64,000 bases of DNA from Candidatus Bathyarchaeota archaeon (GTDB lineage Archaea > Thermoproteota > Bathyarchaeia > Bathyarchaeales > Bathycorpusculaceae): positions 124,001-188,000 of the forward strand of contig JAGTQZ010000002.1 in NCBI GenBank assembly GCA_018396705.1, given 5' to 3'. Position numbers and translations under genes: made by a program. The notes beneath the pieces are model-generated. The model saw only the letters and a program-made list of their open reading frames with translations. It made no database searches and had not been told where the DNA came from. Positions within the stretch are counted from its first letter, which is position 1, and every line of letters starts with the position of its first letter. Below are positions 500 through 3,982 of the stretch, piece by piece.

Positions 500-1144
500 C
501 TAAGAAATTGAAGAATAATAGCCACTCTTATTTTTCTCCGCCATTAATACGCGGTAGCCGCTTCCCCTTGCCAAAACCGTGCAGTTCCCGAAGGTTTCAT
601 GGAATATTTGTTGAAGTCTTTTTCCACCTATCTTGGACTTCACAACAAGTTGTAATGTTCCCTTTTCAACCATATGTTTCGGCGCTTCTGTTATTATGGC
701 TTTTACTGTGGTTAGTCCGGCGCTTACCGGAGGGTTTGAGAGGATGCAGTTGAACATTGTGTCTTTAACTGGCTCATAGAGGCGTCCTTTTTTAACTTCA
801 ACGTTGTGAACATTGTTTAGTTCAATGTTTCGTCTCGCAAGTTTCACAGCTCGTTCGTTAACGTCCACCATAATCACATGCAGTTTTGGGTTGAATGCTG
901 CAGCTGCGATTCCGATGACACCATAGCCGCATCCCACATCCAACACGTAGCCCTTTTCAGGGAGAATCATGGTTTCTATCAATAGTTTTGTACCTAAATC
1001 CACGCGTTTTTTAGAGAATACTCCGGAAGCTGTTAGAAACTTGAAAGTTTTTCCCCTTAAATAGGCTTGTATAAGTCCATATCGTGGTTTCACTTTGGGG
1101 CTTGCTGAAAAATAATGGTCTACTGTGCCTTTTTTGTTAAACAT
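500..1144 (-). CDS. Class I SAM-dependent methyltransferase, RsmC-like small domain
   Basis: A 214-residue protein with SAM-binding motif I (DVGCGYGVIGIAAA, near residue 69), an acidic motif II (IMVDVNERA) and motif IV SNPPVSAG. An NPP motif is typical of enzymes that methylate exocyclic amines of nucleobases, as in rRNA guanine-N2 methyltransferases. The family is known; the RNA target is inferred only. An upstream ATG at 1168 exists, but the start at 1144 overlaps the cbf5 stop by one base (TGATG), which suggests translational coupling with cbf5, another RNA-modification gene. The early DHYFSASPKVKPRYG segment is typical of archaeal members. Confidence 0.85.
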   Translation of the reverse strand: MFNKKGTVDHYFSASPKVKPRYGLIQAYLRGKTFKFLTASGVFSKKRVDLGTKLLIETMILPEKGYVLDVGCGYGVIGIAAAAFNPKLHVIMVDVNERAVKLARRNIELNNVHNVEVKKGRLYEPVKDTMFNCILSNPPVSAGLTTVKAIITEAPKHMVEKGTLQLVVKSKIGGKRLQQIFHETFGNCTVLARGSGYRVLMAEKNKSGYYSSIS

Positions 1145-2178
1145 CAGATTTCGCCGCTTTTCCAGCATCTTGGATATGTGCCTCTTGGCATTAAAACACG
1201 TTTAACCTTTGCGACAACACCGTGTTCCATGCTTAGAATTTCCTCGGTGGAAGCTTGGGCTTCTGCAAGGGCGACCGCCTCGTCTTTTAATGTGAAAATT
1301 GCCACCGTAGAACCTGCAGCAATACCCGATTCTATAGATAAAACTCCGGGAGCAGTTAGGTTTGCCCCATGGCAGATAGCATCCACAGCGGAATCCCGAA
1401 TATATATTTTTGGAATAAATGCTAAGGCTTTTTCCATAGGTTGAATAAACTTTTTTAGAATAGCGTCGTCTCTGTTTTCCCGCCACTGCATAAACCAGTA
1501 CGCTACCTCATGTAGCGTTACAAGCCCCTCCTCTTCGACGAAAGGACCTGCCCTTGTCCTGCGGAGTTCTTGCATGTGGGCTCCGCAACCTAAAACTTCA
1601 CCTATGTCATGGCACAATTTGCGAATATACGTGCCTCCTTCACAGCCAACCTTGAAAAGTACGTTACGACCTTCCATTTCAAGGAAGTCTATATAATAAA
1701 TTTTTCTTGTCCGCAATTGACGCTTTACAGAGGCCCTTAACGGTGGACGTTGATAAATGGTGTCTTCAAACTCTTCTAGGACGGCTTTTACACGGTTTTC
1801 AGGCACATCGCCATGAATTTTCATTACGCAGACGTATTCTTTACCGCTTAGGAGTAGCGCTTGCACTATCTTTCTTGACTCTTCTAAGGTTATTGGGAGA
1901 ACACCGGTCACGTTGGGATTTCCCTAAGCCTTTTACCTAGGATGGGCCTCTAGGGTCCCACCGTGGCCGATGTTTTCTACATCGAGGATGCGTTTAACCC
2001 ATGCGGCTACCTCATGGCTTGTTGGGCCTGCAGGCTTGTCCAAGTTTATAACGCCAAATTTTATGTAGTCCTTTGCCGGACGTTCTTCGGGTTTGCAGCC
2101 ATATTTTGGATCTGTTTCGCCTTCGGCTTTAACTAAGAGTTTGCGTTCAATCATCCATGGAGCAACACTTCTAGGCAT
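1144..2178 (-). CDS. cbf5: Cbf5, RNA pseudouridine synthase of box H/ACA RNPs, interrupted by a 30-nt intron
   Basis: Archaeal Cbf5/dyskerin is the catalytic subunit of H/ACA RNPs and isomerises uridine to pseudouridine in rRNA. Exon 1 (2178-1950) gives the N-terminus up to HGGTL; exon 2 (1919-1144) starts with the proline and continues NVTGVLPITLE, then the catalytic domain (GTYIRKLCHDIGEVLG) and a PUA domain ending MPRGTYPRCW. Read straight through, two in-frame stops fall between them. Removing 1949-1920 restores T-L-D-P-N-V-T-G, including the catalytic Asp, and gives 334 residues, the usual length. It lies between rpl14e and the methyltransferase, as expected for an archaeal translation cluster. 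Confidence 0.93.
1920..1949 (-). other. Archaeal mRNA intron in cbf5 with bulge-helix-bulge-like splice structure
   Basis: On the minus strand exon 1 ends GGGA-CCCT-AG and exon 2 begins A-TCCC. Outer helix: GGGA (1959-1956) with TCCC (1918-1915). Central 4-bp helix: CCCT (1955-1952) with AGGG (1925-1922). The 3' bulge is AAA (1921-1919), the 5' bulge AG or AGA (1951-1949). An inner helix AGGCC/GGCTT (1949-1945 with 1930-1926, one G-U pair) closes a 14-nt loop. This is the geometry cut by the tRNA splicing endonuclease. The insert is 30 nt, in frame, and holds TAA and TAG. Splice ends could shift by one base. Confidence 0.88.
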
Positions 2179-2233
2179 GTTAAGTAGGGCACCTCTAAAT
2201 TTAAAAAGCGGTGGACGAACTTAATAACAGTTG

Positions 2234-2524
2234 TTAAGCTTGGACTAAAGCGGGTTTTACTGGTTTAGCCATCGTCTCCAATAAACCTTTCGTCTTCAAC
2301 GCTTCAACAACTTCCTCGTCAGAAGCACCGCGTTTGATGTCAATTTTATCAGCTAAAGGCTCCAGATGATTTATGTTTGCCCTCCGTCTCCTAACACCAG
2401 TAACGTTTTTCGGGCCAGTAACAAGCACGAAGTTTTTATCTATAATGTCGACTATTACGCATTTTCTGCCTGCTTCCCTACCAGACACTTTAACACATAT
2501 TCTGCCAACCTCAATTGCTGGCAA
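2234..2524 (-). CDS. rpl14e: 50S ribosomal protein L14e
   Basis: A 96-residue protein starting [19 protein letters not shown], the standard start of archaeal L14e with its KOW/SH3-like fold, followed by [18 protein letters not shown] and an arginine-rich [13 protein letters not shown] stretch expected to contact rRNA. Length is normal for archaea. It is upstream of cbf5 on the same strand with about 55 bp between them, a pairing common in archaeal genomes. It has a GGGAGGGA ribosome binding site just upstream of the start. Confidence 0.95.
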
Positions 2525-2626
2525 AGCAGTCCCTCCCTTTTCTAGGCATAAACATAACGCTAATATTTATAATTTCAGCTTCCATAAACATTAAATATCA
2601 TTGAAATTTTAGCTTAACAAAATGGT

Positions 2627-3982
2627 TCACGTCAAGAACTTTTCCACAACATTGTAGAGGGTGCTGGTTCCGAACACAAGATTATTTATAGATATACGTT
2701 CATCTATGCCGTGCACCATTCTGAGGATTTCGCCGTACGGCAAATCTGATAAAGTTGGCTGAAAACCGTAGCATACTGTCCCCATCTTTCTGAAGAACTT
2801 GGAGTCTGTTCCACCGGTCAGCAATATCGGAGCTACCGCACACTTAGAATCGAATTCCTTCAAGGTTTCCACTATACACCTATATAGAGGTGTGTTTGTA
2901 GGCGACTCTGAAGGCTCATTAGCCTGAATATCCTCAAATTCAAGTTTGTCCAAGTCCATGTCTGCCAGAAGCCCTTTTATACATTTTAATGCTTCAACCG
3001 TGGTCTGTCCCGGTAGAATTCTACAATCGAAGACTGCTTCGCATTCAGATGGAATTATGTTTTCTTTAACACCCCCATGAATGATTGTGGGGGCTATAGT
3101 CATCCTTAACATAGCGCGGAGCTCTTCAGCCATAGCCTTATCTTTCTTGGCTAACTTATCTAAGACTTCATCAGCCTTCGTCGGATTTTGAACCAAAAGT
3201 CTAAGCTTTTTCCCCATCTCTTTGTTTTCCTCAGCCATGACCGCCAAAAACTCCTTAACGGTTGGTGTAAGCACCATCTCTGCACAATAATTGCCAAGCT
3301 TGTCCACAACTTTACTCATTCGCAATATCGCGTTGTCAGCAGCTCCCGGCACCGAACCATGCCCAGGTCTGCCCTTAGCCTTGACTTTAAACCATAAAAT
3401 GCCTTTTTCAGCCGTTTGAATTGTGAAAATGTTTTTGCCATCCACCGGGATTGCTTGTCCACCCCCCTCGTTTATTACATAGTCTGCCCTAACTTTTTCC
3501 GGATATTTTTGGACAAGCCAGCCTGCACCATATTCTCCACCTTTTTCTTCATCAGCTGTCGCTGCCAGTATAACGTCACCCTTAAGTCTGACGCCGTTAC
3601 GTTTCAGAAGCTTCATAACCATGACTTCCATGGCTGTCATGGACTTCATATCCATGGCGCCTCTGCCCCAGACAAAGCCGTCCTTAACTAGTCCAGAGAA
3701 GGGGTCGACGCTCCACTCTTTCGGGTTTGCAGCCACCACGTCTAAATGGGAAAGTAAAAGTAAGCTCGGCTTTTCGCCAGTGCCCTTTAACCGAGTGATC
3801 ACGTTTCCTCTACCGGGGGCGGATTCCAAAATTTCGCATTTGAAACCATCCCTTTCAAGAGTTTCAGCCAAAAACTTGGCTGCTTTAGTTTCATTTCCTG
3901 GCGGGTTTGTGGTGTTAATCTTTATCAAATCGCTCAAGAGAGTTGTAACCTCTTCTTCAATTTCTTTCAAAAGCCTCACGCC
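2627..3982 (-). CDS. M20 family metallopeptidase (ArgE/DapE/carboxypeptidase type)
   Basis: A 451-residue zinc-dependent amidohydrolase of the M20 family. The metal and catalytic segments are visible: SHLDVV (His and Asp near residue 80), GRGAMDMKS (bridging Asp), the DEEKGGE acid pair, and NEGGG; the lid domain follows and a late TGGTDSKFF carries the last metal-ligand region. Members cleave N-acyl amino acids or small peptides; the substrate cannot be read from sequence. I chose the ATG at 3982 over the one at 4030 because CAGGTGA sits six bases upstream. No nearby arginine or lysine genes support a biosynthetic role. Confidence 0.88.
   Translation of the reverse strand, partial: GVRLLKEIEEEVTTLLSDLIKINTTNPPGNETKAAKFLAETLERDGFKCEILESAPGRGNVITRLKGTGEKPSLLLLSHLDVVAANPKEWSVDPFSGLVKDGFVWGRGAMDMKSMTAMEVMVMKLLKRNGVRLKGDVILAATADEEKGGEYGAGWLVQKYPEKVRADYVINEGGGQAIPVDGKNIFTIQTAEKGILWFKVKAKGRPGHGSVPGAADNAILRMSKVVDKLGNYCAEMVLTPTVKEFLAVMAEENKEMGKKLRLLVQNPTKADEVLDKLAKKDKAMAEELRAMLRMTIAPTIIHGGVKENIIPSECEAVFDCRILPGQTTVEALKCIKGLLADMDLDKLEFEDIQANEPSESPTNTPLYRCIVETLKEFDSKCAVAPILLTGGTDSKFFRKMGTVCYGFQPTLSDLPYGEILRMVHGIDERISINNLVFGTSTLYNVVEKFLT

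Follow-up and report, generated by a model that had tools for sequence, protein, structure and literature searches.

The closest described counterpart of the locus considered here is the intron that interrupts cbf5 in certain Crenarchaeota. In Yokobori 2009 (PMC2738675), cbf5 introns measured 16–44 nt and were confined to Desulfurococcales and Sulfolobales, being absent from Thermoproteales, two Thaumarchaeota, and Korarchaeum; the published view is that the intron was gained in the ancestor of Desulfurococcales and Sulfolobales. A 2020 paper (PMC7714728) gives crenarchaeal cbf5 as the sole such mRNA case besides its own 5′ UTR example. In the full-text literature (with most subscription papers and all preprints outside the scope of the search), we found no report of a cbf5 intron in Bathyarchaeia or other new lineages.

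The window—the whole 64-kb stretch of DNA analysed—carries an interrupted cbf5 gene in an archaeon that belongs neither to Desulfurococcales nor to Sulfolobales and lies outside the published range, a matter of range and not of how the intron is defined. Its nearest named relatives are Candidatus Bathyarchaeota MAGs, the closest at 78–90% Cbf5 identity, in agreement with an earlier note, made from the sequence alone, that had considered a Bathyarchaeia-like organism. The minus-strand gene at 1144–2178 codes for Cbf5, an essential RNA-modifying enzyme that acts as the pseudouridine synthase in H/ACA RNPs, with domain matches in both of its pieces; its parts and the elements of the minimum free energy (MFE) fold are as follows:

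1950–2178, minus strand: cbf5 exon 1 (residues 1–76 and letter 1 of the Asp77 codon); first ORF with the DKCLD domain, full Cbf5 match once spliced
1920–1949, minus strand: cbf5 30-nt intron, AGGCCCATCCTAGGTAAAAGGCTTAGGGAA, with in-frame TAA (1933–1935) and TAG (1924–1926); MFE fold, same-codon inserts in relatives
1144–1919, minus strand: cbf5 exon 2 (letters 2 and 3 of the Asp77 codon through the stop codon); TruB_N (part), TruB_C_2, and PUA
1956–1959, minus strand: outer (exon) helix, 5′ strand GGGA, pairing with 1915–1918; MFE fold
1915–1918, minus strand: outer (exon) helix, 3′ strand UCCC; MFE fold
1952–1955, minus strand: central helix, 5′ strand CCCU, within exon 1; MFE fold and covariation across the family
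1922–1925, minus strand: central helix, 3′ strand AGGG, within the intron; MFE fold and covariation across the family
1949–1951, minus strand: 5′ bulge AGA, predicted cut G1950/A1949; MFE fold and relatives, cut by analogy with the published rule
1919–1921, minus strand: 3′ bulge AAA, predicted cut A1920/A1919; MFE fold and relatives
1945–1948, minus strand: inner (intron) helix, 5′ strand GGCC, pairing with GGCU at 1927–1930; MFE fold, inner pairs covarying in relatives
1927–1930, minus strand: inner (intron) helix, 3′ strand GGCU; MFE fold

Read on the minus strand, 1950–1918 is G AGGCCCATCCTAGGTAAAAGGCTTAGGGAA AT; that is, the insert splits the codon of the catalytic aspartate (T-L-D-P) between letters 1 and 2 (G1950, then 1949–1920, then A1919 and T1918). 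The unspliced codons across it run GAG GCC CAT CCT AGG TAA AAG GCT TAG GGA AAT, and the earlier note had placed both in-frame stops at this motif and the boundaries of the 30 nt correctly to the base. Excision of 1920–1949 restores the reading frame as CTA GAT CCC, yielding T-L-D-P-N-V-T-G, just as had been proposed for splicing at AG/A and AA/A. Registers G/AT and GA/T lead to an identical product, and the bulge-helix-bulge (BHB) rule selects G/AT. The expected unspliced stub indeed lacks the catalytic Asp, but it is 81 residues long (76 of them genuine), not 80. Once spliced, the protein comprises 334 aa, scores 466 bits against the NCBIfam Cbf5 model (cut-off 242), and aligns with solved Cbf5 without gaps through G-H-G-G-T-L-D-P; it is unambiguously Cbf5. 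The 1.71-Mb genome, 97% complete, holds one cbf5 copy, and the interrupted gene must therefore be the working one. It is flanked by a methyltransferase-like ORF (500–1168) and a short ORF (2234–2524) that is putatively ribosomal protein L14e-like by the look of its sequence, an order also seen in genome G075.

The MFE fold of 75 nt around the insert contains the BHB, at −32.8 kcal/mol against −22.6 ± 3.0 for shuffles (z = −3.4; 0 of 200 shuffles as stable). All of the elements described in the earlier note—the GGGA/TCCC outer helix, the CCCT/AGGG central helix, and the AAA 3′ bulge—are present, and its term "relaxed" is apt for this copy, in which the fold adds A1951–T1926 as a fifth central pair and leaves a 5′ bulge of 2 nt, not the canonical 3 nt. 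This pair can form in the host genus, so that the central helix reaches 5 bp and the bulge shrinks to 2 nt; the canonical 4-bp helix is seen in most relatives. By the published rule, cleavage falls between bulge bases 2 and 3, and predicted cuts at those positions give back the GAT codon. When the whole 64 kb was scanned for BHB-like structures joining two open frames, the cbf5 site ranked first of 11; none of the other ten candidates in the window has comparable pairing in all three helices, and the scan yielded no second convincing case.

Loci for comparison with other archaea came from one contig scan, from a search across the family that covered 91 genomes, and from 140 genomes drawn evenly from the phylum. 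An insert at the same codon, 13 to 76 nt long, is present in 109 of 189 distinct archaeal cbf5 genes; the other 80 have none, with the Asp codon intact and nothing left over. Inserts occur across Bathyarchaeia and in several other lineages of its phylum, and none was seen in the loci examined from one Lokiarchaeota, one Hadesarchaea, and several methanogen-type archaea. Comparison with cbf5 of related genomes, in line with a check that the note had suggested, places inserts at the same codon in both the genus and the family. Two loci (L099 and L148) had no match to the exon 1 motif and were left unclassified, and an apparent 174-nt insert in L104 (Micrarchaeota) was dropped as a motif-matching artefact. 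No intron is present in the loci that we take to be Pyrolobus fumarii (L140) and Ignicoccus hospitalis (L145), matching the published state for these species, and what is presumably Caldiarchaeum subterraneum (L180) has an insert of 14 nt. Inserts of 22, 38, 36, and 19 nt were extracted from the loci that we assume to be Sulfolobus acidocaldarius (L191), Aeropyrum pernix (L173), Staphylothermus hellenicus (L151), and Metallosphaera cuprina (L201). In the literature, the first three species have introns of 22, 38, and 36 nt, and two other Metallosphaera species have introns of 19 nt (Yokobori 2009, PMC2738675); checked in this way, the extraction returns published sizes at these loci.

Several relatives depart from the common form. 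Inserts of 13 nt, below the published 16-nt minimum, are found in L177, L179, L187, L197, L199, L200, and L202 and leave little or no space for an inner helix (bulge-helix-loop), and L169 (genome G136) has a 76-nt insert at the cbf5 codon, twice any other length found. In the window's own family, L277 (genome G075; 1503–3866, minus strand) encodes a Cbf5 with a 22-nt BHB intron and an intein-like insert of ~520 aa, located after an I-R-K-L motif and bearing intein-splicing and LAGLIDADG domains—RNA-level plus protein-level inserts in a single gene. Two genomes of the same order (G123 and G139) gave no cbf5 match at E 1e-20 despite 96–97% completeness, probably owing to an assembly gap.

Within the 109 intron-bearing genes, the 5′ bulge is AGA in 91 and the 3′ bulge AAA in 68, and the central-helix pairs are retained in 107–109; a point against the BHB reading, alongside the 2-nt 5′ bulge of the window's copy, is that the unconstrained MFE fold lacks the central helix in 12 of these 109. 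The wobble base of the Thr codon and its intron partner change jointly (C-G in 73, T-A in 32, T-G in 3), a covariation above that of 1000 of 1000 shuffles, and five inner-helix pairs also covary above all 1000 shuffles. Tree-based contrasts for the first two inner pairs stood at 9.9:0 and 8.3:0 with versus against the partner, slid controls being flat, and the Thr-wobble central pair alone gave 4.5 to 0 in independent pairs (p 0.06).

Codon choice in the exons follows the same helices: synonymous codons fit them where the intron is present (GGG ACY CTA ... GAT CCC) and are unconstrained where it is absent. In family f1, at least four of five fitting codons occur in 22 of 22 intron-bearing genes versus 0 of 24 intronless ones, counts that come from related and not independent genomes and for which a Fisher p is therefore too strong. 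With the five codons combined, a tree-based test gave a median p of 0.03 on 7 supported independent contrasts, too few to power tests of single codons, and in phylogeny-corrected tests on these contrasts the Leu and Pro codons singly were not significant. In intron-bearing Bathyarchaeia, the Gly-His codons of exon 1 and the Val-Thr codons of exon 2 can pair as well, extending the exon stem. This second exonic helix is not alike in Bathyarchaeia with and without the intron, and because shuffling partners within each group leaves its pairing undiminished, it reflects base choice rather than covariation.

The inserts also show a pattern of reading frame. A length divisible by three, to which the earlier note drew attention, is true of the 30-nt intron but is a minority state: 86 of the 109 inserts are frame-shifting, and fewer than expected have a 3n length (23 of 109; p 0.006, relatedness ignored). 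All 23 introns of length 3n contain an in-frame stop; under loop-only shuffling, ~8 of them were expected to be stopless, versus 0 observed. When the exon 1 frame is read on, a stop is met in 76 of the 109, versus 23 and 19 in the other two frames. The pattern is partly inherited (GAG GCT TAA is found in many Bathyarchaeia), and distant lineages have differently placed stops (L115, L136, L150, L151, L156, and L184). That every 3n intron contains a stop suggests that translation of unspliced mRNA has been selected to fail, sparing the cell a full-length Cbf5 whose active site carries an insert, a product that could poison H/ACA RNPs. A similar dearth of stopless 3n short introns is reportedly seen in some eukaryotes such as Paramecium, and their absence here would be a hint that archaea are affected by the translation of unspliced mRNA.

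Components for splicing are encoded in the genome. There are two PF01974 (EndA) proteins. One, L001, is of the alpha type: it stands closest to catalytic EndA subunits from archaea (PDB 2cv8, 3p1z) and has retained the catalytic His, at a position occupied by Ala in the 3ajv chain. The other, L002, is of the beta type and lacks this His. A hetero-oligomeric EndA is predicted from these genes, with a probable (alpha-beta)2 quaternary structure. RtcB is present in one copy, and ~8 tRNA genes were called with introns (15–60 nt), so BHB splicing is in use in the host genome. Two EndA genes are the general pattern across the phylum; family f17 has one EndA match throughout and is intronless where examined, and since a few intron-bearing genomes, such as G063 and G124, also have one match, no simple rule of EndA number applies.

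We consider it very probable that the cbf5 intron is excised by EndA, with ligation by RtcB, as an archaeal tRNA-type pre-mRNA intron. Exon and intron bases of the transcript would form the BHB, EndA—the predicted (alpha-beta)2 enzyme—would cut within each bulge, RtcB would ligate the exons to restore the GAT codon of the catalytic aspartate, and the 30-nt intron would be released, possibly as a circle. This reading, which the earlier note shared in naming the tRNA splicing endonuclease, is supported because the position and phase are those of the published spliced intron, the BHB is the MFE fold, the pairing covaries, the codons fit the helices, the gene is single-copy, and EndA, RtcB, and tRNA introns are all present. 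Sequence, predicted fold, conservation of position, covariation, codon constraint, and gene presence are direct observations; cleavage, ligation, and circularisation in the host are proposed by analogy with published crenarchaeal cbf5 experiments.

Other accounts of the interruption fare poorly. Known bypass sites have a stop codon and a stem-loop at the gap, as does cbf5, yet it is most improbable that the gap is kept in the mRNA and hopped over by the ribosome, as in the programmed bypassing of phage T4 gene 60: the gap divides the Asp codon, CTA precedes that codon with no matching take-off/landing codon at the 3′ border across relatives, gap length ranges from 13 to 76 nt, covariation fits a BHB with cut sites restoring GAY, and the homologous crenarchaeal introns have been published as spliced out of RNA. 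A GTG start at 1909–1911 in the downstream ORF might instead point to a split enzyme, two polypeptides from two ORFs assembling into a working Cbf5, to which one peptide spanning GTLDPNVTGVLP would be contrary. The catalytic Asp, however, lies in neither piece, its codon being divided by the insert, and the in-frame GTG encodes the Val of the conserved P-N-V-T-G motif, where codon choice also fits the exon stem; we give this arrangement a very slim chance. Finally, two in-frame stops within an otherwise conserved gene could mark a mutation in a dead or mis-assembled cbf5, but that the only copy in so complete a genome should be broken, with both exons 79–90% conserved with relatives, is scarcely credible, and identical-codon inserts in independently assembled genomes of the genus and family already contradict the assembly artefact that the earlier note had named as a risk.

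For the preferred reading, a spliced tRNA-type intron, the extension of range foreseen for a Bathyarchaeia-like host holds for Bathyarchaeia, but the actual range is far wider than Bathyarchaeia. The cbf5 intron is present in far more archaeal lineages than published and is probably much older than thought. On the Cbf5 tree, the intron state changed at least 12–13 times, and the intron was reconstructed as ancestral in family f1 (0.98–1.00) and at the node spanning Bathyarchaeia (0.90–1.00); at the phylum ancestor, values ran from 0.46 to 0.99 by model on this tree of one short gene with weak deep forks. Because of those properties, the tree does not separate a single origin with ~17 losses from a mixture of gains and losses. 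Within genera, intron-bearing genes are nested among intronless close relatives (L021 and L044 in G015, L108 in G063, L232 in G061), reflecting either an intron kept by some members and lost several times or its return to the identical site through gene exchange. We tentatively entertain, at slightly less than even confidence, an intron already carried by the ancestor from which most or all of the phylum descends (Bathyarchaeia, Thermoproteia, and Caldarchaeales-type lineages) and selected to keep an in-frame stop or frameshift; if true, it may be older than any other spliced intron of conserved position in a prokaryotic protein gene. The wider set either pushes the gain back considerably in time or shows that it recurred at a single nucleotide, and either history informs how protein-gene introns arise without a spliceosome. 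In practical terms, cbf5 is likely annotated as a truncated ORF without the catalytic Asp in many Bathyarchaeia and related genomes.

What appears to be new is the range of lineages; the intron's kind, codon, and phase were known already. The earlier note's emphasis on a hidden catalytic aspartate does not amount to novelty, the crenarchaeal precedent lying in the same catalytic codon, and 30 nt is not "very short" for the class (13–76 nt here, 16–44 nt published). The BHB sites in the 5′ UTR of Haloferax volcanii HVO_1309 (PMC7714728) are likewise an mRNA substrate of EndA but lie outside coding sequence in an unrelated gene. Archaeal tRNA and rRNA BHB introns share the predicted excision structure and enzymes, and tRNA introns are present in the host genome; in cbf5, by contrast, splicing would act on an mRNA to yield a codon, and coding sequence supplies the exon helix. 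Nearest of all is the cbf5 intron of Desulfurococcales and Sulfolobales (Watanabe 2002; Yokobori 2009, PMC2738675), which has the same gene, codon, and phase, a BHB-like structure, a similar length, and an (alpha-beta)2-type endonuclease. That intron is experimentally spliced (PMC2738675), whereas the host intron is predicted from sequence and belongs to other lineages, and the host genus differs in favouring a 5-bp central helix with a 2-nt bulge.
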